From a virus: DNA of 42,854 bases. The translations under genes and the position numbers were made by a program. The DNA is taken from the IMG/VR virus record IMGVR_UViG_3300050015_000622, positions 1 through 42,854 of that record. One strand, written 5' to 3'. The notes beneath the pieces are model-generated. The model made no database searches, was not told the origin of the DNA, and saw nothing but the letters and a program-made list of their open reading frames with translations. Of the stretch, positions 3,955 to 42,854 are shown one piece after another. Positions within the stretch are counted from its first letter, which is position 1. Every line of letters starts with the position of its first letter.

Positions 3955-4575
3955 ATGAAGTATTTGGTATATCAAATAAAAAATATTCATAATGATAAAA
4001 TTTATATTGGAAAACACATTACCGAAAATGAATTAGATAATTATATGGGTTCGGGAAAAATAGTTTCCAGAGCTATAAAAAAATACGGAGCAGAATCTTT
4101 TTCTAAAGAAATTTTAGAATATTGTTCTGCCGAATCCCTTAATGAAAGGGAAATATTCTGGATTAAAAATAATAACTCCCTTCAGCCTAACGGATATAAT
4201 ATTGCTTTAGGAGGGGAAGGAGGGGATACTTTTACATTTAATCCTATATCTGAAAAAACTCGAGAAAAAATAGCTAACTCTCATTTAGGAAAACATCATA
4301 ATGAGAAAACAAAAGAAAAGATAGCTAAATCTCTAGAAGGAAAACGTCTTGGAATAAATCACCCCATGTTTGGTAAAGTTTCAGCTTTTAAAAACCATAC
4401 CCATTCAACAGAATCCATAGATAAAATGAAAAAAATCAAAGAACATATTCCCGAAAAATCCCGAGATAAAATGAGTCAATCAGCTAAAAAATTAAAAGAA
4501 TGCCCTCATTGTCATAAAATAACTAATGTTGGAAATTATAATAGATGGCATAATAATAACTGTCGTTTTAAATAA
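3955..4575 (+). CDS. GIY-YIG homing endonuclease with NUMOD3 repeats (206 aa)
   Basis: The N-terminal domain (residues 1-95) has the GIY-YIG pattern: YLVYQ ... DKIYIGKH ... YMGSGK, then a NEREIFWIKNN block and GYNIALGGEGG. Residues 100-150 hold DNA-binding NUMOD3-type repeats (SEKTREKIANSHLGK, NEKTKEKIAKSLEGK). The C-terminus carries a CPHCHK ... HNNNC zinc-finger-like cluster. It is the only plus-strand gene in the left half and points against the surrounding operons, as expected for a free-standing mobile gene. The ATG at 3955 is preceded by an A-rich leader. Confidence 0.92.
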   Translation: MKYLVYQIKNIHNDKIYIGKHITENELDNYMGSGKIVSRAIKKYGAESFSKEILEYCSAESLNEREIFWIKNNNSLQPNGYNIALGGEGGDTFTFNPISEKTREKIANSHLGKHHNEKTKEKIAKSLEGKRLGINHPMFGKVSAFKNHTHSTESIDKMKKIKEHIPEKSRDKMSQSAKKLKECPHCHKITNVGNYNRWHNNNCRFK

Positions 4576-5049: not shown

Positions 5050-5307
5050 TCAGGTTTGATGTTCTGCAAAAACGCTTTCCAGATAATCTTCAGTTTTGCT
5101 TCCCTTACCTCTTCCTTCGAAATTTAATTCAGCTAAGAGATCTTTTATATTGAAGATCTTATAAACTGGTTTTACTGTTTTTTCCATTGTATTTTGTGTT
5201 TGTAAATGTGATTGTTCGAATTTTTTAAGATCGTCAAGATCCCTGGTATCCCGCTCATATCCGGCTAAATCCATTAGTCGAACCCCTTTATTTTGTAAAC
5301 TTGCCAT
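5050..5307 (-). CDS. hypothetical protein (85 aa)
   Basis: A small charged protein with an Asp/Arg-rich start (LAGYERDTRDLDDLKKF) and a predicted helical C-terminus. Its ATG overlaps the last base of the 5' nuclease gene's stop region (both at 5307), so it is translationally coupled to the nuclease and may belong to the replication machinery. No family recognised. Confidence 0.7.
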   Translation of the reverse strand: MASLQNKGVRLMDLAGYERDTRDLDDLKKFEQSHLQTQNTMEKTVKPVYKIFNIKDLLAELNFEGRGKGSKTEDYLESVFAEHQT

Positions 5308-6491
5308 TAGAATAATGATTTAGATTTAGCTATCATTTTATCTGTATCCCCAAATATAGAAGCTTCCTTACCTGTATTTGGTTTATATTTTCCTCCCGGA
5401 GTTACATATCTAGTTCCTTCAAGTATTGAAAGCATATTCCAACTTTGAGGATGAATTTGGGGTTTAGAAAGTTCTTCTGTAACTCTATTTTTAAATGCAG
5501 AAGTTATTTCTATAGGAAATATATTAGAATCCAAAAGAAGGACTAATTTCATCTGTCTCATTAAACGATCTTCGGGATTAAAAGATGGCTGATGACCGCA
5601 TATAAGAGCTATTTCGTCATAAATTTCTTTTGATTTTCCAACCAGATCTTTAGGTTCTTTAGCACCAATATGTTCGATGATTTTTTTATATTTTGAATCG
5701 GTTATTCGAACTTCCTTATCTTCTCCGTTTTTATCTTTAACAATCCAAGTATAAATTGCTGGAACATTATCCCCATCATCGCCACAGAAGATTTTCTTCA
5801 GAGCAATTTCCGGACCAAATACTTCTTCAACTTTTACTTTTCCGTCGTTCGAGATCCTTTGAAAATCTTCCTTATCCACATCAATACTACGGTCAAAAAT
5901 ATCTCCATTATCTTCGTCTTTTATCCAATCAAAAAATTCTCTAGGAACGAATAGCTTTTTAGAAGCATTTTTCCCCTGAGTAAATGGGTTGAAAACTGTA
6001 CAAACTACTGGTTTTGGACAATTAGAATTGTATGCAACCAATTGGCGTACGTCTTCATCCGCTGATACTATAATAACATGCTGATTTTGTTTGTAAAGGA
6101 ATTCATCTCTCCATAATGCAATAAGATCATCTGCTTCAGCTTTCTCAAACTGGGATACGATGAATCCATTAGTTTGCAAAATATCAGAAAATTCTTTCAT
6201 AATCTTAAATACCCCTTCCCAGTTAATATTTTCAGATTTTGTTCTCTGACCTTTATAACCTTCGTTCTCGTCAATAGAAATTCCTTTTCTCCAGGATTTT
6301 GAATCCATAGCGAAAAGAATACGAGAAGGATTTACTTGTCTGATAACCTGAGAAACATCTGTCGCAACCTTTCTCATTAGCTGATCCAATTCGGACTGGC
6401 TGTGAAAAGTATACTGCTTCGACCCATAACCTCCTACGATAAACAAACTCCGGAAAAACATATTACTTAAATCAAAAATAGCATTCGTCAT
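5307..6491 (-). CDS. rnh: RNase H / FEN-family 5'-3' exonuclease (T4 Rnh-like)
   Basis: A metal-dependent 5' nuclease that in T4 removes RNA primers and flap DNA from Okazaki fragments. Visible metal-site motifs are FDLSNMFFRS (Asp7), FAMDSKSWRKG (Asp63), KAEADDLIAL (Glu119, Asp121, Asp122), VSADEDVRQL (Asp145, Asp147) and CGDDGDNVPA. At 394 aa it is longer than T4 RNase H (305 aa); an insertion around residues 160-215 and an extended C-terminus account for the difference. A homing endonuclease gene separates it from the clamp loader gene upstream, and the gene has its own TTAAC-type promoter at 6505-6560. Confidence 0.88.
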   Translation of the reverse strand: MTNAIFDLSNMFFRSLFIVGGYGSKQYTFHSQSELDQLMRKVATDVSQVIRQVNPSRILFAMDSKSWRKGISIDENEGYKGQRTKSENINWEGVFKIMKEFSDILQTNGFIVSQFEKAEADDLIALWRDEFLYKQNQHVIIVSADEDVRQLVAYNSNCPKPVVCTVFNPFTQGKNASKKLFVPREFFDWIKDEDNGDIFDRSIDVDKEDFQRISNDGKVKVEEVFGPEIALKKIFCGDDGDNVPAIYTWIVKDKNGEDKEVRITDSKYKKIIEHIGAKEPKDLVGKSKEIYDEIALICGHQPSFNPEDRLMRQMKLVLLLDSNIFPIEITSAFKNRVTEELSKPQIHPQSWNMLSILEGTRYVTPGGKYKPNTGKEASIFGDTDKMIAKSKSLF

Positions 6492-6504: not shown

Positions 6505-6560
6505 CAAATGTACGAAAAATATATTCATCTTTTATTTTATTGAGGTTAAATTCTCGTTAA
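6505..6560 (-). promoter_or_regulatory. tandem-TTAAC promoter for the 5' nuclease gene
   Basis: Minus strand: TTAAC (6560-6556), 6 nt, TTAAC (6549-6545), 15 nt, GATGAA (6529-6524), 11 nt, TACATTTG (6512-6505), then 13 nt to the ATG at 6491. The two half-sites repeat with an 11-bp period and lie inside the 3' end of the homing endonuclease gene. Confidence 0.7.
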
Positions 6561-7260
6561 ATTTGCAATGATCAAAATGATAGCGAGTCATATTTCCCCC
6601 TTTACCTTTTTTCCCGCAATGAGGACAAACCACCAGTTTCATATTATGTTTCTTATTTCTTAAAGATTTGCTTAAATTTTCTTTGTGCAATTCTGAACAT
6701 GAAATCCCTTTATTCCAAACATCCCTGATTAATTTTTTTCCTAAATGGCTTTTACTTTGATTTTCTAAAAATTTCTCATATTTTATTTTCCCGATTTTTT
6801 CGCCATAAGCCATTATCAATTTTTGCAAGTGAGAAACCCCCTTATACCCGGAAGGTTTTCCTTTCTTAGCCAAACTCATATTTTTTTTGCAAATTTCGGA
6901 TTTTTTGATTCCTTTTAATTTGTTATCTTTTTTAAGAGTTTTACTAATTTGATCCTTTCTTTCCTGAGGAACAATCATACCCGGGGTTCCTTCCCCACCA
7001 AACGTAAGATTGTATCCGAATGGAGAAAATGTATTTTTTATTTTAATCCAGGAATTTTCTTTTTCTTGCCAATTATCTTCAGAACAAAATTCTAATATGT
7101 TTTTTTCAAAATTTTCTTTTCCGTATTTTCTTATAGCTCTTTTTAAAAATCTACCACTTCCTAAATAATTATCTTCCAAATTATCGGTAGAATGAAATCC
7201 AACATATAATTTATTATTTAAGATATTTTTGGTTTCATAAATATAATAATATTTTTTCAT
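6532..7260 (-). CDS. GIY-YIG homing endonuclease with NUMOD3 repeats (242 aa)
   Basis: The GIY-YIG domain occupies residues 1-95: YYYIYETKNI ... KLYVGFHS ... YLGSGR, KENSWIK and GYNLTFGGEGTPG. Downstream are NUMOD3-like basic helices (KKNMSLAKKGKPSG; KENLSKSLRNKKH) and a C-terminal CPHCGKKGKG ... HFDHC zinc-finger-like cluster. It is inserted between the clamp loader and 5' nuclease genes, in the same orientation. Its domain order matches the other two homing endonucleases in this window. An 11-bp hairpin ends two bases before its ATG and may limit translation. Confidence 0.92.
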   Translation of the reverse strand: MKKYYYIYETKNILNNKLYVGFHSTDNLEDNYLGSGRFLKRAIRKYGKENFEKNILEFCSEDNWQEKENSWIKIKNTFSPFGYNLTFGGEGTPGMIVPQERKDQISKTLKKDNKLKGIKKSEICKKNMSLAKKGKPSGYKGVSHLQKLIMAYGEKIGKIKYEKFLENQSKSHLGKKLIRDVWNKGISCSELHKENLSKSLRNKKHNMKLVVCPHCGKKGKGGNMTRYHFDHCKFNENLTSIK

Positions 7261-7323: not shown

Positions 7324-8280
7324 TTATTTTTCAAGTATTTGTTGAAGTCTAAAAATGCAAGCTAGAAGAGTTATGAGTGGATCAATGACAAATGCTTTCC
7401 GATATTGATAGTCGGCTATTTCAATGATAACTCCTGGCATCTTATCTAATTTGGCAGGAGCCATATTTTTAAGATATTCTGGAAAATCAGTTCCTAAAGC
7501 TGATAAAGCTTCGTCTACCCTTGAACCATATTGATTAACTACCATTTTATAATTATCCCATGGTTTCTTTGGCGGTTCAAGACAAAGATGAAATAATTCC
7601 TGAAAATCCGAAGCTGTGGCCATATTTTCTATGGTCAGTTCGGATACTTCTCTTAAATAAAGAGACTGTATTTTATTCATGATCGCTCTTAAATCCGGAA
7701 AATCGTTTAAAACGAATCTTTCCAAATCTGGATCTGTGTAAGAAATATTAGCGGCTTTTAAAATAGCTGCAGCTCTCTTTTTATATTCTCCTATAAGATA
7801 TACTTTTTCCTGTTCATTAATGGGGTCGTAAGCTATTTCCAAAAATCTGGATTCCCTAATAGCGGCCGGAATTTTAGGAAGAAAATTGCAGGAAGCGATG
7901 AAACGAGTTGTAGCTGAATATCTTTCCATTGCCGATTTAAATGCACCGAAAAATTCAGGGGTTGCTCCATCAAGCTCATCTAATATAACACATTTTAGAT
8001 GTTCCTCTCCGTCCAATAAAGAAATTGAGGAACAAAAACTAGGAATAGTTTCTCTCATGGTTTCTATTCCACGCTCGCTCGACGCATTAATATAAAGATA
8101 TGGATGACCCTGAGCAATAATAAAAAGAGTAGAAGATTTGCCAGTTCCCGGAGAGCCATAAAGTAAGATATTCTGGATTAGACCCTTTTCCAGCTGTTTC
8201 TTAATTCGTGGGGGAGCAATAAGCTGCTCCAATTTTTTGGGACGGTATTTTTCTGTAAACAGATCTGTTACAACGCTCAT
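7324..8280 (-). CDS. 44: AAA+ sliding-clamp loader large subunit (T4 gp44-like)
   Basis: An ATPase that loads the sliding clamp on DNA. The N-terminus has the family FTEKYRPKKLEQLI segment, Walker A GSPGTGKS (residues 42-49), Walker B VILDELDG (about 98-105) and a sensor region FIASCNFLPKI. The arginine-finger SRC motif reads IRESRFLE, with Phe in place of Cys. With the ATG at 8280 the protein is 318 aa, close to T4 gp44 (319 aa); the longer frame to 8328 would need a TTG start. It lies downstream of the Nudix gene and upstream of the homing endonuclease and 5' nuclease genes. Confidence 0.92.
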   Translation of the reverse strand: MSVVTDLFTEKYRPKKLEQLIAPPRIKKQLEKGLIQNILLYGSPGTGKSSTLFIIAQGHPYLYINASSERGIETMRETIPSFCSSISLLDGEEHLKCVILDELDGATPEFFGAFKSAMERYSATTRFIASCNFLPKIPAAIRESRFLEIAYDPINEQEKVYLIGEYKKRAAAILKAANISYTDPDLERFVLNDFPDLRAIMNKIQSLYLREVSELTIENMATASDFQELFHLCLEPPKKPWDNYKMVVNQYGSRVDEALSALGTDFPEYLKNMAPAKLDKMPGVIIEIADYQYRKAFVIDPLITLLACIFRLQQILEK

Positions 8281-8321
8281 AATTATGTTTTTATATTTTA
8301 GAGGGGAGGGGGATAAAAGTT

Positions 8322-8897
8322 TTAGCAAAATAACTTTTTAATCCATCTTTTCCACCAAGGTAATAGACTTTTGTAAAAATATTCTTCAGCCTGAACAATT
8401 CTTAAATCATGACCAAATACAAGACTATAATCATTGACTTCGTTCAGCTTAACCCATCTAACATCCGATATTTCATGATCAATATGGGATAGGGGTTCTA
8501 ATGGCAAACCTTCTTTATTAAAATCATAAACAAATCCAAAGTATAGAACTATATTTTGTCTGTTTTCTGTAGCTTCCGTATTAACCCGAAAGGGTTCGCA
8601 TTTATTTGCATTGACAAGAAACCTGTTATATTTTGGAAGATAAAGGGAAGTTTCTTCATAAAGCTCCCGAGTAATAGCTTGCAATCCATTCTCATCCCAA
8701 TCAATATATCCACACGGAAGACACCATTTTCCGGGTTGATCCATCATAGTCTGGGATCTTTCTTCAATTAAGACATAAGTGTCTCCCATAAATTTTCCCA
8801 AGACAATTCCGACAATAGCTACACTACGGCTAAGCCAAACAATACGATCCTGAAGTTTCAATTCTTCATTGGGTCTATTATTGAATTTTGGTTCCAT
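8322..8897 (-). CDS. Nudix hydrolase (191 aa)
   Basis: Residues 63-85 fit the Nudix box G-x5-E-x7-R-E-U-x-E-E: GYIDWDENG ... TRELYEETSLY, with Ser in place of the usual second Gly. The preceding WCLPCG and following beta strands match the fold. Nudix enzymes hydrolyse nucleoside diphosphates linked to another group; the substrate cannot be told here. T4 NudE (Ap4A/ADP-ribose) is a known phage example. A C-terminal basic and Trp-rich tail (PWWKRWIKKLFC) could contact nucleic acid or membrane. It lies 41 nt upstream of the clamp loader gene. Confidence 0.9.
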   Translation of the reverse strand: MEPKFNNRPNEELKLQDRIVWLSRSVAIVGIVLGKFMGDTYVLIEERSQTMMDQPGKWCLPCGYIDWDENGLQAITRELYEETSLYLPKYNRFLVNANKCEPFRVNTEATENRQNIVLYFGFVYDFNKEGLPLEPLSHIDHEISDVRWVKLNEVNDYSLVFGHDLRIVQAEEYFYKSLLPWWKRWIKKLFC

Positions 8898-11429: not shown

Positions 11430-11452
11430 TTTTACTTTTTTTAGTTGGTTTG

Positions 11453-11533
11453 TGGCTTGGGAGGGATTCGAACCCTCAGCTTTTTATCGTTCCCGGCCTC
11501 TCGTTTGGGCTATAATCCAATCGGAGCTAAGCC
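11453..11533 (-). tRNA. tRNA-like element, possibly degenerate
   Basis: On the minus strand GGCTTAG (11533-11527) and CCAAGCC (11460-11454) can form a seven-pair acceptor with one A-C mismatch, followed by discriminator A. A perfect T arm is present: GAGGG, loop TTCGAAT, CCCTC. A D-arm-like block GCTCCGATTGGATTATAGC is also recognisable, but it directly abuts or overlaps the acceptor with no clear positions 8-9. I could not fold a normal five-pair anticodon stem in the remaining 30 nt, and no CCA is encoded (CAA follows). The span is 81 nt. It has its own phage-type promoter. It could be a decayed tRNA, an atypical class II tRNA, or a tRNA mimic. Confidence 0.45.
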
Positions 11534-11537
11534 AAGA

Positions 11538-11592
11538 TAAATGTACAAAATACTTTCCAAGTACAAAAATCTAAACCGTTAAAAAACGTTAA
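11538..11592 (-). promoter_or_regulatory. tandem-TTAAC promoter of the tRNA-like element
   Basis: Minus strand: TTAAC (11592-11588), 5 nt, TTAAC (11582-11578), 15 nt, ACTTGG (11562-11557), 11 nt, TACATTTA (11545-11538). The -7 box ends five bases before the first acceptor base at 11533, so transcription should start at or next to the RNA's 5' end. The half-sites have a 10-bp period and are both followed by G (TTAACG). Confidence 0.7.
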
Positions 11593-11702: not shown

Positions 11703-12033
11703 CAATTTTATTATGATAATGAGGAACATCCTCCGCTGAACAATTGCAGATTGGATTCTGATTGTTTAAACGATTTATCAGTCTTCTCCCCTCCTCTGTA
11801 ATCTTTTCAGATAATTCCGGATCATAAAAATTTGTGGGAATTTCTTCAGCTTCTATCGGCTCTAGTTCATAAGACATAATATAAGACTTTGGTGTAAAGG
11901 GGCTCCATCGACGATAATGGCCTTCCGGATCTGCCATGTAAGTGACTTTCAAAGTAAACCCACGAGCTCCATTATCAAAGAGTCTTTTAAGGGTTTCAAG
12001 AAAATGTTCTGAATTACTTGTTGACCGGTTCAT
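11689..12033 (-). CDS. hypothetical protein (114 aa)
   Basis: Residues 1-60 look like a mixed alpha/beta fold (FLETLKRLFDNGARGFTLKVTYMAD). The C-terminal part ends with a Cys/His cluster (NPICNCSAEDVPHYHNK) that might bind metal. It overlaps the 3' end of the regulator gene by 20 bp and is therefore probably co-expressed with it. No family recognised. Confidence 0.68.
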   Translation of the reverse strand: MNRSTSNSEHFLETLKRLFDNGARGFTLKVTYMADPEGHYRRWSPFTPKSYIMSYELEPIEAEEIPTNFYDPELSEKITEEGRRLINRLNNQNPICNCSAEDVPHYHNKIDENN

Positions 12034-12775
12034 GTTCGAGTATTAATCCAACGCCTGAAATATTTTTAATGCTGAGATTTACTTTCTTAGCTCCGAAGAG
12101 TTTACGCAGATTCGTAACATATACATCCATTGATCTGCCAGCAAAATAGTCATCTTTGTGCCAAACCTTTTCAAGTATGATTTCTCTCTTAACTACTTCG
12201 CCATAATTGGATGAAAGGATTTCCATGATGCCGCCTTCTTTAGCCGAGAGTTTCTTAACTTCTTTTTCTTTGAAGAATAAGGTTCTTCTGGTCGGATCAT
12301 ACTTGCAATTTCCAAATTCAATAACTTCAGCCATTTTGGTTGTAAGTTTTTTAAGCTTATCAAAGCTCTTTGAATAATTGGAAATATTGCTGATAACGAC
12401 ATCGTATAATGTCTGATAAGAAGTAGACATATCAGTTCCTACCGCGAATGGCATATAAATATCCGCTCCTGTAACTTCCAGAAGACCATCAAGAGTTCCA
12501 AACAGCACAATTGGAATATAAGGGGATTTTCTCTTTATAAAATCTATTGCTTTTTTAGCAAATGAAGCCGGAGTATGAATAGCGAATCCCTCTATTGTAT
12601 CGTCTGCAATAAGATCAAAAAGAACACGCTCAGTTCTAACTGAAATAACTTCAGCGTCAGCTTTCTGAAGAGTGATTGAACCTTTCCCATACCCAGCATT
12701 ACTCGCTGATACCTTAGAATAGCGATTAAAGATATTAATCACTTCAGGTTCAGGAGTGTAAATTACAATCTTCAT
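12014..12775 (-). CDS. OmpR/PhoB-type winged-helix regulator with degenerate receiver
   Basis: Residues about 153-247 match the Trans_reg_C winged helix closely: KKLSAKEGGIMEIL, then VVKREIILEKVWHKDDYFAG, the recognition segment GRSMDVYVTNLRKLF (about 213-227) and the hairpin ISGVGLIL. The first 140 residues occupy the place of a receiver domain but lack the phosphoacceptor Asp (GFAIHTPASF at the expected strand) and the conserved Lys before Pro-Phe (DIYMPFAV). It should therefore bind DNA without two-component phosphorylation. The wording of the helix (DDYFAGRSMDV) is like Bacteroidota response regulators, suggesting capture from a host. The correct start is ATG 12775; the longer frame begins with TTG. 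Its own promoter carries TTAAC repeats, so autoregulation is plausible. Confidence 0.85.
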   Translation of the reverse strand: MKIVIYTPEPEVINIFNRYSKVSASNAGYGKGSITLQKADAEVISVRTERVLFDLIADDTIEGFAIHTPASFAKKAIDFIKRKSPYIPIVLFGTLDGLLEVTGADIYMPFAVGTDMSTSYQTLYDVVISNISNYSKSFDKLKKLTTKMAEVIEFGNCKYDPTRRTLFFKEKEVKKLSAKEGGIMEILSSNYGEVVKREIILEKVWHKDDYFAGRSMDVYVTNLRKLFGAKKVNLSIKNISGVGLILEHEPVNK

Positions 12776-12801: not shown

Positions 12802-12857
12802 CAAATGTACATTAAATATTTTTAAAAATTTGATATTTCTTGTTAAAAATCCGTTAA
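12802..12857 (-). promoter_or_regulatory. tandem-TTAAC promoter of the regulator gene
   Basis: Minus strand: TTAAC (12857-12853), 6 nt, TTAAC (12846-12842), 15 nt, TTTAAA (12826-12821), 11 nt, TACATTTG (12809-12802), then 26 nt to the ATG at 12775. Half-site period is 11 bp. Confidence 0.7.
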
Positions 12858-20981: not shown

Positions 20982-21704
20982 TTAAGATAAAGAAACTACT
21001 TTTTTTGTTAATAAACCCTTATTCCATGGGGTGGATCCTTTTTTTGCATTACTCATATTTTTTCTTGCTTGATCTGACATTTTTCTTCTTTTTTTTCCTC
21101 TAAGAGAAGTTCCTATATTTTGTTTTATTTGATCCGATTTTTCTTTTCCGTGGATTTCTTCAAAAGATCTCCCCTTTAATTTTTTTCTAATTTTTTCTTT
21201 TGTTTCGGAAGAACGATTTATTCCCTGCAAAGCTTTTCCAATTTTTTCTCCTCTTCTTTTTGCCCCCTCTTCGCCTAATATTTCTATAAGGGTTTTTCCA
21301 GATCTTTGTAATCTATATTCTTTCTTTCTTCTATCAGATTCTTCTTTACCAAATTTTTGTTCCCAAGATACATTTTTATATAATTTGCTAAAATGTTGTT
21401 TGGTTTTTTCATCATGAAAATTTGGAGCAAATACTCCTCCATTAGGAGGAGTATTATATCCATTTGGATTCAAGCTTTCAAAAAGTTGAATATATTTTTT
21501 CTCATCTTTATAAGATTCATTTCGATCTGAATAATATTTTATAGGAAAAGAAATAAAATTAGTTTTGCTATGTTTTTTTATAGCTCTATCTAATAATAAT
21601 CCGGAGCCAAAATAGATTTCATCAAACTCCTTTTCGGAACTATGCGACCCAATATAAATTTTTCCTGAAATCTTATTAATAGTCAAATAACAATAATGAA
21701 ACAT
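20982..21704 (-). CDS. GIY-YIG homing endonuclease with NUMOD3 repeats (240 aa)
   Basis: GIY-YIG domain in residues 1-95 (FHYCYLTINKISGKIYIGSH ... YFGSG ... GYNTPPNGG), followed by basic NUMOD3-type helices (RRGEKIGKALQGINRSSETK; RRKMSDQARKNMSNAKKGS). Unlike the other two copies there is no C-terminal CPHC zinc cluster; it ends with WNKGLLTKKVVSLS. It is placed between a short open frame with a phage promoter (21753-21869) and the RNase H-like gene. Confidence 0.9.
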   Translation of the reverse strand: MFHYCYLTINKISGKIYIGSHSSEKEFDEIYFGSGLLLDRAIKKHSKTNFISFPIKYYSDRNESYKDEKKYIQLFESLNPNGYNTPPNGGVFAPNFHDEKTKQHFSKLYKNVSWEQKFGKEESDRRKKEYRLQRSGKTLIEILGEEGAKRRGEKIGKALQGINRSSETKEKIRKKLKGRSFEEIHGKEKSDQIKQNIGTSLRGKKRRKMSDQARKNMSNAKKGSTPWNKGLLTKKVVSLS

Positions 21705-22452: not shown

Positions 22453-22508
22453 TTAACGAGCCTTTAACCGGCAAAAGAAATTTATATGGGAAATAGTTCG
22501 TATATTAG
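22453..22508 (+). promoter_or_regulatory. rightward tandem-TTAAC promoter
   Basis: TTAAC (22453-22457), 6 nt, TTAAC (22464-22468), 15 nt, ATATGG (22484-22489), 11 nt, TATATTAG (22501-22508), then 23 nt to the ATG at 22532. The half-site period is 11 bp. The -7 box has A instead of T at its seventh position. Confidence 0.68.
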
Positions 22509-22531: not shown

Positions 22532-23311
22532 ATGTCAATTGATTGGTTCGGATTAAAAGCTATTGCAGCTAAAAAAATAGAAATAGCAAGACAGAAAAAA
22601 GAAATAGAAGAAGTTGCAGAAGAATCTAAGAAAGTTCGGCTTGAAAAAATAAAAGCAGAGTTTCAAATACTTAAGAAAAGAGCAAATGAGGAAGCTGACA
22701 AGCAAAATGAGACCGATAAATGGTGGTGCAGTACTCTAAATGACAAATGCCCCAAATGTGGTTCAAAACATGTCAATGAAAGAATAAAAAGGATACAGGG
22801 ACAATTTGATAGCTATATTGATGGAGATTTCGATGGAGGATTTTTAAGAGGTACCAGCGGATCAATTCATGGGGAGGGTCACGGCAAATTAGACACAAAC
22901 GAAGTCAATAAATGCAATGATTGTCAACATGAATGGAAAGTAAGAAAAAGAGACTGGATCTATGAAAGTAAACGATTGGAAAGTAACTTCGACTATCTTT
23001 GTTGGCTTTTAGAAGACTATCATAAAGCATTTCATGCTAAATTTAATCCGGAGGACCTAAAAGAAACATTTACCTCGGCAGATGAAAAAAGAACAGCTAT
23101 GATTTTGGAAGTAGATAAAGGAGGTAGATTAAAAACAGTTCAGACCTTCTTCAGAGACATCAGTATTGAAACTATCAAAGAAGTAGCAGCAAAAGAAATA
23201 TGGCCACCATTTTGGTCAAAAGATAAAGCTAGCAAAGACTTTGATCGTTTTATGGAACACTTCAAAGATAAATATCTTTGCGGAAAAATTGGTTTAACAC
23301 ATATAAAATAA
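22532..23311 (+). CDS. zinc-ribbon protein with N-terminal coiled coil (259 aa)
   Basis: Residues 10-60 form a charged coiled coil (KKIEIARQKKEIEEVAEESK). Two CxxC knuckles, CPKCGSKH (about 74-81) and CNDCQHEW (about 128-135), make a zinc ribbon separated by a Gly/Asp-rich loop. The C-terminal half is helical with many Trp and Phe residues. First gene of the rightward operon. Zinc ribbons of this kind often bind nucleic acid; the exact role is unknown. Its stop overlaps the next ATG (TAATG). Confidence 0.75.
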   Translation: MSIDWFGLKAIAAKKIEIARQKKEIEEVAEESKKVRLEKIKAEFQILKKRANEEADKQNETDKWWCSTLNDKCPKCGSKHVNERIKRIQGQFDSYIDGDFDGGFLRGTSGSIHGEGHGKLDTNEVNKCNDCQHEWKVRKRDWIYESKRLESNFDYLCWLLEDYHKAFHAKFNPEDLKETFTSADEKRTAMILEVDKGGRLKTVQTFFRDISIETIKEVAAKEIWPPFWSKDKASKDFDRFMEHFKDKYLCGKIGLTHIK

Positions 23312-25994: not shown

Positions 25995-26332
25995 TAGAAA
26001 GAGGAATTTTATACCATGAAGTTATCGATTTGGGATTCAAAAGAGAAGACCAGTCGGATAATATTTTTTTCAAAGAAAATGGTTATGAATGGTTTTTGGT
26101 TACAAAAAAGCTTTCCAAGGGATTATATCTTGATTGGGATTGTGAAACCCATAGAGTAGAACTTATTCGCTGGGTTCCCAAAGATGGGGATATTCTTAAC
26201 AGAAGGACCCTGGTAACTGTTGAAGAAATCAAAGATTGTATTGAATTTTTCACAACTAAACAGCCAAAGAAAAAAGAAGTAAAAGCATATTTCACAGCAA
26301 CCCCCGAATTTATAGGAACTACTGTAGCATGA
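25991..26332 (+). CDS. hypothetical phage protein (113 aa)
   Basis: The layout IDLGFKREDQSDNIFFKENG-type start, then YEWFLVTKKLSKGLYLDWDC and VEEIKDCIEFF, is recurrent in small phage early proteins of unknown function. The C-terminus is basic then hydrophobic. Overlaps both neighbours by four bases. Confidence 0.7.
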   Translation: MIERGILYHEVIDLGFKREDQSDNIFFKENGYEWFLVTKKLSKGLYLDWDCETHRVELIRWVPKDGDILNRRTLVTVEEIKDCIEFFTTKQPKKKEVKAYFTATPEFIGTTVA

Positions 26333-26817
26333 GAGAGCCGAAACAAGTTCATATTTGGAGCAAACCCCAATTCAATTCTGCATTAGGAAAACTGGGTATA
26401 AATGATAAAAATGTTCATGAACTTCCTGATGTTGCATTCATTTCGATTAATGATACTATGGGACAATGGAATCAGTCCTGGTTCGATGAAGACCACGATA
26501 ATGTTTTAAGACTTTGGTTCGATGATGTTGAGACAGATATGGATTTGTGGTCCCCAACAAATACTATTCATGTTGAAGCTTTTAATTCTTATCAGGCTCA
26601 GGACATTTTGGATTTTATAAAAAGAAATGAGCATAAGAAAACTTTTATAGTTCATTGTACGGCAGGAATAAGCCGTAGTGGAGCAGTTGGCCAATTTATT
26701 GCCGATTACTTTGCTTGTGATAAAGAAGAATTCAAAAGAATGAATCCTCATATTTGTCCTAATGGACTAGTTTCTAGAATGTTAAACAATTTAGTCAACG
26801 GATATGCCAACGATTGA
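26329..26817 (+). CDS. tyrosine/dual-specificity phosphatase-like protein (162 aa)
   Basis: Residues 109-118 read HCTAGISRSG, a full HCx5R phosphatase signature with nucleophile Cys110 and Arg116, followed by the alpha-helix AVGQFIADYFAC and a second helix. The segment FDDVETD (about 64-70) may supply the general acid Asp. The size fits a minimal dual-specificity phosphatase. It may dephosphorylate a host protein or, as some family members do, RNA 5' ends (compare the RNA triphosphatase branch of this fold). It is in the RNA-ligase operon, which makes an RNA-end substrate worth considering. Confidence 0.85.
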   Translation: MREPKQVHIWSKPQFNSALGKLGINDKNVHELPDVAFISINDTMGQWNQSWFDEDHDNVLRLWFDDVETDMDLWSPTNTIHVEAFNSYQAQDILDFIKRNEHKKTFIVHCTAGISRSGAVGQFIADYFACDKEEFKRMNPHICPNGLVSRMLNNLVNGYAND

Positions 26818-27340
26818 ATATCAAAGACTCTGGTGCACTAAGTGCAAAGATTGGGAATTGTTTGAACTTCCTTGGGGATTAGAAGATAGGGGTAAAAAAG
26901 AATTAGTTTGCAAGAAATGTGGAACCGTTCATACTCCAACTAAACTTTCAGAAATTCCCAAAGAAAAACTTTTGGAACAGAGAGAACGATATAATGAAAA
27001 ACAAAAAGAGAGTTATACCAAATTGTTTGGTGAATTCATGATGACTCAGGAAGAAAGAAACATAAAAGAAATAATGCATATGTTTTCTGAACCTGGCTCT
27101 GATGTTTATATTATTGAATCAGATGCTGGTCAGAGGGAGATTGATAAGATCGAAAGGGAAGCCAGATGGAAAGGAGCTCAAGAAAGGGAAGCTGCTAAAG
27201 AGGAAGCTAGACAGAAACTTTCAATTTATCGAAAAGTTCAAAGAAATGATACTTGCCCATGTGGAAGTGGGAAGAAATATAAAAAATGTCATCTTAATGA
27301 GAATAATGCCTTAATGTTGGAACATAACTTAAGATTTTAA
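26804..27340 (+). CDS. zinc-ribbon and SEC-C motif protein (178 aa)
   Basis: The N-terminus has two CxxC pairs (CTKCKDWE, CKKCGTVH) forming a zinc ribbon. A long charged helical middle (about residues 50-145) is followed by the C-terminal SEC-C motif RNDTCPCGSGKKYKKCH, as in SecA tails and many small proteins. SEC-C zinc modules contact ribosomes or SecB in host proteins. A role at the ribosome or with nucleic acid is possible; the middle region gives no further clue. Confidence 0.82.
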   Translation: MPTIEYQRLWCTKCKDWELFELPWGLEDRGKKELVCKKCGTVHTPTKLSEIPKEKLLEQRERYNEKQKESYTKLFGEFMMTQEERNIKEIMHMFSEPGSDVYIIESDAGQREIDKIEREARWKGAQEREAAKEEARQKLSIYRKVQRNDTCPCGSGKKYKKCHLNENNALMLEHNLRF

Positions 27341-42322: not shown

Positions 42323-42346
42323 TATATAGTTAAAGAACCGTTAAAA

Positions 42347-42854
42347 ATGGCATTTAATAAAATATGGGATACAGACCTTATAAACGATACTCTTCAAAGA
42401 TTTAGATACGGCGAAAATGTCGAGTTAGATTGTTTTCACCAAAGAGATCCAGAGTTAAAAGGTGCAGAAGTTTTATTTCAATTAACACACGAAGAAGAAG
42501 CTGAATTTAATAAGTGTGCTCAAGATGTTCAATATTTCGTAGAAACATATTGCCGTTTCCTCACTGACTACGGCCGTGTTACCGTAGAATTAAGGGATTT
42601 TCAGAGTGATATTCTTGCAACTTTAGGAGAAGAAGTTTTTATAGAAAAACTTGATGATTTTGGTCCTAAAGTTAGAAACTATATTCTGATGGCGAGCAGG
42701 CAGACGGGTAAATGTTTTTCATTTGATACTCAAATAGTTATAAAGAATACTTCAACGAATAGTTTAATTAAAATTTCTGTAGGACAGTTATATTCAATTA
42801 TAAATAAAAGACCTAATAAATCTAAAAAAGAAAAATTTATTACAAAAATTAAAA
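42347..42854 (+). CDS. 17: large terminase (gp17-like) 5' part with intein start, runs off the edge
   Basis: The DNA-packaging motor ATPase. Residues 1-122 correspond to the gp17 N-terminal region ending in VRNYILMASRQTGK, an SRQ-x-GK(T) Walker A. The expected Thr/Ser is replaced by CFSFDTQIVIKNTSTNSLIK, which matches an intein N-terminal splicing block (Cys first, F-x-x-D-T-x-I). Intein start is at 42713. The frame stays open to the window end, so the remaining intein and terminase parts are not visible. Confidence 0.85.
   Translation, partial: MAFNKIWDTDLINDTLQRFRYGENVELDCFHQRDPELKGAEVLFQLTHEEEAEFNKCAQDVQYFVETYCRFLTDYGRVTVELRDFQSDILATLGEEVFIEKLDDFGPKVRNYILMASRQTGKCFSFDTQIVIKNTSTNSLIKISVGQLYSIINKRPNKSKKEKFITKIK

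Follow-up and report, generated by a model that had tools for sequence, protein, structure and literature searches.

Which protein reads the paired TTAAC sites that precede several genes of this phage, and could it be the OmpR/PhoB-type regulator whose own gene lies behind one of them? The window, by which we mean the whole 42,854-base stretch of DNA analysed here, is a viral record of IMG/VR (G000) from a Bacteroidota-type phage that encodes a T4-like clamp loader (7324-8328), a 5'-3' exonuclease (Table 1), a terminase region and tail genes, and the deposited phages closest to its exonuclease are the Prevotella Lak megaphages (34%). By eye, a terminase-like ORF that is cut by the window end (42347-42853) appears to have an intein-like interruption directly after a Walker-A-like motif (SRQTGK|CFSFDTQI...). 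Three ORFs resemble GIY-YIG homing endonucleases, at 3955-4575 (+), 6532-7260 (-) and 20982-21704 (-); the one at 6532-7260, the sole member of the three that was checked, lies just under the curated Pfam cut-off (E 0.0011).

The regulator is a full-length protein of 253 aa in which Trans_reg_C (PF00486) is the sole Pfam match (residues 174-243, E 1.3e-13, 51.3 bits against a cut-off of 26.2), no Pfam profile of the receiver family matches it, and its PDB sequence matches are nearly all OmpR/PhoB-type regulators, reached via the effector domain. An AF2 model from 8 homologs (mean pLDDT 76.5, with the receiver region at ~80 except for residues 21-40) superseded a poor earlier model from 3 sequences (pLDDT 57.7), and in it the N-terminus folds as a complete receiver in (beta-alpha)5 order, with five strands and five helices, the last of which forms a long linker helix that is followed by the winged helix. 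Among solved receivers, residues 1-148 of the model match 3kht (Z 14.5, rmsd 2.4, 122 residues aligned) and the HP1043 receiver 2pln (Z 12.6). For residues 149-250 the counterparts are OmpR/PhoB effector domains such as 4ixa, the SaeR domain (Z 14.8). Compared at full length, the fold matches HP1043, CosR and RitR among others, the placement of the two domains relative to each other being unreliable in the model (pTM 0.51, full-length rmsd >9). The intact C-terminal winged helix and the receiver-like N-terminus of the original prediction are both borne out, the former by Pfam and fold comparison and the latter by the modelled receiver fold.

That prediction also held that the receiver had lost its phosphoacceptor Asp and switch Lys, and alignments and model agree: H67 stands at the Asp position at the end of beta-3 and M108 at the Lys position before the conserved Pro of beta-5, and the acidic pair after beta-1 is lost too, with T7-P8 in its place. 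The three features of a canonical phosphorylatable response regulator (acidic pair, Asp, switch Lys) are all absent from the protein, and a canonical phosphorelay is ruled out because these required residues are missing. We noticed no histidine kinase among the ORFs of the window, which holds an incomplete phage genome. An aspartate-less receiver is defined as a receiver domain without the Asp that is fused to an output domain (Bourret et al., PMC12632262), and by this definition the protein, as modelled, is an aspartate-less pseudo-receiver protein and an atypical response regulator. The switch Lys is missing from every homolog aligned, and the Asp at beta-3 is kept only in L006, L137 and L135, which have lost the Lys and the acidic pair as well. 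Because L006, L137 and the distant homolog L135 retain this Asp, the state seen in the window may be the endpoint of a gradual loss of the phosphorylation residues. L135 itself, a distant phage OmpR/PhoB homolog (record G003, 26281-26991, minus strand; 22-27% identity) with the Asp in ILDGFG and no Lys, may represent a halfway stage between a working phosphorelay and its loss.

Four perfect TTAAC-N6-TTAAC pairs occur in the window (Table 1) where 0.16 are expected, and 0 of 100 shuffles reach 4. They belong to a fixed promoter layout in which the pair is followed after exactly 32 bases (N32) by the Bacteroidota -7 box TAnnTTTG, with an ATG mostly within 50 bases: TAnnTT stands at exactly N32 from 3 of the 4 perfect pairs in the window (p ~2e-5) and from 21 of the 42 pairs in the phage group to which the window belongs (p about 2e-25), and no -7 box is found at N32 from the pair at 42329-42344 (-). 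The pairs that had been predicted before the regulator and exonuclease genes were both found where they had been placed, and the two intervals proposed for binding experiments, 12802-12857 and 6505-6560, consist of exactly the pair, N32 and the -7 box. TAnnTTTG occupies -12 to -5 (PMC9723704), and counted from this position the half-sites fall at ~-60 to -56 and ~-49 to -45. Just downstream of the TTAAC promoter with the 10-bp spacing lies a tRNA-like or tmRNA-3'-end-like stretch (11440-11535, minus strand) with a T-arm (GAGGGTTCGAATCCCTC) and an acceptor-like CTTGG/CCAAG; ARAGORN detects no tRNA in it and Rfam returns only a weak tmRNA T-arm match.

Table 1. Regulator gene, TTAAC sites and -7 boxes in the window.
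Feature	Position	Strand	Remarks
Atypical (aspartate-less) OmpR/PhoB-type response regulator gene	12014-12775	-	ATG at 12775; 253 aa; full-length
Predicted pseudo-receiver domain, residues 1-115	12431-12775	-	AF2 model, structure comparison, alignments
OmpR/PhoB winged-helix DNA-binding domain, residues 150-250	12026-12328	-	Pfam; model matches to SaeR/PhoB effector domains
TTAAC-N6-TTAAC pair, own promoter of regulator (TTAACGGATTTTTAAC)	12842-12857	-	Kept in 7/7 orthologs
-7 box TACATTTG, own promoter of regulator	12802-12809	-	Exactly 32 bases past pair; ATG 27 bases on
TTAAC pair upstream of 5'-3' exonuclease gene (5307-6491)	6545-6560	-	Kept upstream of G001 ortholog
-7 box TACATTTG, exonuclease promoter	6505-6512	-	N32 from pair 6545-6560
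TTAAC pair upstream of gene 22532-23311 (zinc-ribbon-like protein)	22453-22468	+	Perfect pair
-7-like box TATATTAG	22501-22508	+	N32 from pair 22453-22468
TTAAC half-sites 10 bp apart	11578-11592	-	N32 to TACATTTA (11538-11545); tRNA-like stretch next
Fourth perfect TTAAC pair	42329-42344	-	Abuts ATG (42347) of terminase-like ORF on other strand

Scans of IMG/VR gave seven regulator orthologs from five lineages, all of them on fragments of uncultured phages: the window protein, L005 of G001 (63% identity), L006 of G002 (46%), L205 of G039 (45%) and the three close copies L206, L207 and L208 (~50%). No cultured phage with an ortholog was found. L205 was reached independently, its record having been drawn in by the promoter pattern. 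A perfect TTAAC pair lies within 130 bp upstream of the start in 7/7 orthologs, compared with 4.3% of genes in the ortholog-bearing genomes, and the chance of finding it in 5/5 lineages is ~1e-7 if the lineages are independent. The distance from pair to -7 box is N32 in three of the promoters, N42 (+10) in L206-208 and N54 (+22) in L205, which preserves the helical phase of the two elements. Since unconstrained promoter DNA would be scrambled at such protein divergence, the pair in these promoters appears to be under selection, and because all orthologs hold an own-promoter pair that only ~4% of genes possess, the comparison supports a putative autoregulation through the pair. The claim that the regulator's own promoter holds an 11-bp direct-repeat site is confirmed and extends to every ortholog found; such a promoter shows that the gene is a target, not that its product is the binder.

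The protein and its sites can be compared with several known systems. HP1043/HsrA of Helicobacter pylori has a degenerate receiver that needs no phosphorylation, a TTTAAG-N5-TTTAAG site and activator function in vitro (PMC5253667, PMC8345958), and together with CosR of Campylobacter it matches the window protein structurally and shares its OmpR/PhoB architecture and degenerate receiver. The HP1043 site resembles the TTAAC pair in that two AT-rich hexamers 5 bp apart form an 11-bp repeat adjoining the core promoter, and by analogy we regard HP1043 as the closest functional parallel. HP1043 and CosR are, however, chromosomal and essential, with no evidence for common descent beyond the family, and the HP1043 site has the core TTTAAG rather than TTAAC and replaces the -35 element instead of lying upstream. 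ChxR, GlnR and RitR are likewise atypical OmpR/PhoB response regulators that join a pseudo-receiver to a winged helix, and RitR is an aspartate-less, cysteine-based redox sensor (PMC5965902). C157, the only cysteine of the window regulator, is located where the DNA-binding domain begins and is invariant in 7/7 orthologs; redox switching of the RitR kind is conceivable, at a position that differs from RitR Cys128. The sites can also be compared with the tandem boxes of WalR/VicR and PhoP type: on the opposite strand, TTAACA-N5-TTAACA becomes TGTTAA-N5-TGTTAA, which agrees with the WalR/VicR consensus TGTWAH-N5-TGTWAH (PMC4168254). The TTAAC pair thus has the site form read by the OmpR/PhoB family, although WalR is a kinase-controlled response regulator and the phage proteins lack the phosphorylation residues. 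Among phage proteins, the C-terminal 100 residues of the regulator match phrog_731, a family with an OmpR-like C-terminus (E 5.4e-13). In the MotA/AsiA switch of phage T4, a phage protein on a box that precedes the host -10/-7 element steers the host polymerase to phage promoters. The role that we propose for the window regulator would be analogous, but MotA has an unrelated fold and its box lies in the -30 region.

We favour, with a probability of about 0.55, the reading that the phage-encoded aspartate-less regulator has its binding sites in the TTAAC pairs directly before the core promoter, from where it activates a small regulon and also controls its own gene. Its established basis is the gene, the predicted fold, the missing phosphorylation residues, the fixed promoter layout and the conservation of the pair in ortholog promoters. 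The regulator would work without phosphorylation and probably dimerise through its receiver-like domain, placing a head-to-tail pair of molecules on TTAAC-N6-TTAAC, an 11-bp direct repeat that would present both half-sites on the same side of the helix. Bound at ~-60 to -45, directly upstream of the core promoter, it could contact the host RNA polymerase, and OmpR-family activators recruit this enzyme from such sites. The replication exonuclease, the regulator itself and a few small genes would form the regulon driven in this way, so that the regulator would control its own gene. For the regulator we infer DNA binding, activation rather than repression, and its timing in infection.

The original prediction expected gene and motif to occur together, and this holds in one direction. 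TTAAC promoters are present in G001, G002 and G039, all three of the further phages with an ortholog of which a long stretch was read, and individual pairs are kept upstream of the exonuclease gene in G000 and G001, of the 'MAKKDHTL' gene in G001, G012 and G045, and of the 'LSPVE' gene in G012, G045 and G039. The promoter class is, however, common in uncultured phages, most contexts being promoter-like among the pattern matches listed, and 42 of the 47 TTAAC-selected records among these matches have no Trans_reg_C gene. The 5/47 that do (6/48 with G001, which the pattern re-found) compare with 0/50 control records chosen by the canonical Bacteroidota promoter (TTTGG-N19-TATCTTTGCA), a weak test (Fisher p 0.012-0.024) whose true strength is less because G016 and G043 carry identical Trans_reg_C proteins. 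G003, home of the distant homolog L135, has no TTAAC pairs; in G012, G045 and G009, which are closer kin of the window and whose records are fragments, the regulator gene was not seen. G043, G028 and G047 encode small Trans_reg_C proteins that lack a receiver, and the promoters of these genes contain no perfect pair, that of G043 having one half-site.

Several TTAAC-N6-TTAAC-N32-TAnnTTTG promoters each were also observed in G006, G015, G018, G009 and G043 (L164-L177, L339-L356). G006 (266 kb), which has a clamp loader and an exonuclease in common with the window, places 28 of its 30 TTAAC pairs at N32 (p 4e-58), and even a permissive search revealed no OmpR-type gene in it; a profile from eight seeds likewise found no divergent OmpR-type gene in G006, G018, G015 or G009. 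The expectation that the motif depends on the gene therefore fails in these more distant phages, and the TTAAC motif as a class cannot depend on the regulator alone: since G006-type phages hold the class without an OmpR-type gene, another factor must read the pairs there. As to the regulator being the reader of the TTAAC sites, own-promoter conservation lends partial support to this part of the prediction within the immediate family, and the motif without the gene speaks against it beyond. The shared families that emerged among motif-rich phages, judged by eye, were nucleases, a clamp loader, a thioredoxin and others without signs of a regulator, and no other common regulator stood out among them. 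Near 160628 (+) in G006, downstream of a TTAAC promoter, we noticed by eye a protein with cRec-like motifs (LFLDDVR...SFDHDLA) that may be compared with the cRec domain of jumbo phages (PMC7824862).

The promoters of the two sets of phages differ at -33, where TTTGG is present in 35/49 promoters of other TTAAC phages versus 0/26 in the window's group. The idea that the lack of a -33 box indicates dependence on an activator was dropped because this lack is genome-wide in the group (-33 TTWGG in 0/309 other candidate promoters of gene-carrying phages); the lack reflects the phage group or its host, not activation by the regulator. In ~5.6 Mb of cellular replicons (Prevotella, Persicobacter, Flammeovirga, Spirosoma and small Flavobacteriia replicons) there are 12 TTAAC pairs versus 44 for the reversed control, and in ~0.65 Mb of Bacteroidota plasmids 0 versus 7. 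TTAAC-N6-TTAAC is rather avoided than enriched in cellular Bacteroidota replicons (L139-L151, L211-L213). A role of TTAAC as a general Bacteroidota promoter element is not supported, given 0/151 canonical phage promoters and no enrichment in the cellular replicons, a sample without Flavobacteriia chromosomes.

The main rival to this activator reading is that the TTAAC pairs are read by a host factor, either an OmpR-family regulator encoded on the chromosome or some other protein conserved in Bacteroidota, the phage regulator being merely expressed from them and acting on other sites. A single reader of this kind would account for the recurrence of one box at N32 in unrelated phages, whether or not they possess the gene, including the 28 promoters of G006, and it would sit well with the lack of another shared regulator in motif-rich phages; we nevertheless judge it unlikely, if a serious contender, because it gives no reason for the regulator's own promoter to keep the pair so strictly, because the pairs are not enriched in the cellular Bacteroidota replicons sampled (Flavobacteriia chromosomes not among them), and because the tested cultured phages of Cellulophaga, Flavobacterium, Tenacibaculum, Nonlabens and Bacteroides and the tested Prevotella Lak phage have no such promoters beyond chance.

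Were the regulator to bind the pairs as a repressor, exerting negative autoregulation and early-gene shut-off like many phage regulators, pair-based autoregulation would be equally expected, and the pair at 42329-42344, which abuts the terminase start with no promoter on its own strand, would suit such a role. A repressor site, however, would be less tied to one position and would often cover part of the -7 box or the start, and the pair instead precedes the core promoter at set distances in helical phase (N32, N42, N54), the usual place of an activator site, which makes repression improbable. Least probable, in our view, is that the pair is an UP-like element for the alpha subunit of RNA polymerase that needs no dedicated regulator: two alpha C-terminal domains would fit the 11-bp spacing and the fixed core-promoter distance, and the element would work in phages without the gene, but a perfect pair at N32 is absent from all 151 canonical Bacteroidota phage promoters, cellular replicons are not enriched, and the strict five-base core TTAAC is, to our knowledge, more specific than known UP elements.

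Taking the phages with and without the gene together, we tentatively entertain an undescribed promoter class in uncultured Bacteroidota phages that would be read by phage-encoded regulators, an aspartate-less OmpR/PhoB protein acting as autoregulated master switch in one group and an unrelated factor in others. In the open-access literature that we searched, nothing relevant turned up on atypical regulators encoded by phages or on TTAAC promoters of Bacteroidota and Bacteroidota phages, which does not prove their absence. The regulator would add a viral example to the aspartate-less response regulators, proteins whose mode of activation has yet to be settled. Bacteroidota use an unusual sigma factor and promoter, and transcription control in their phages has been little studied; a sharply defined promoter class, together with a candidate regulator that has the box in the promoter of each of its orthologs, makes for a directly testable switch.
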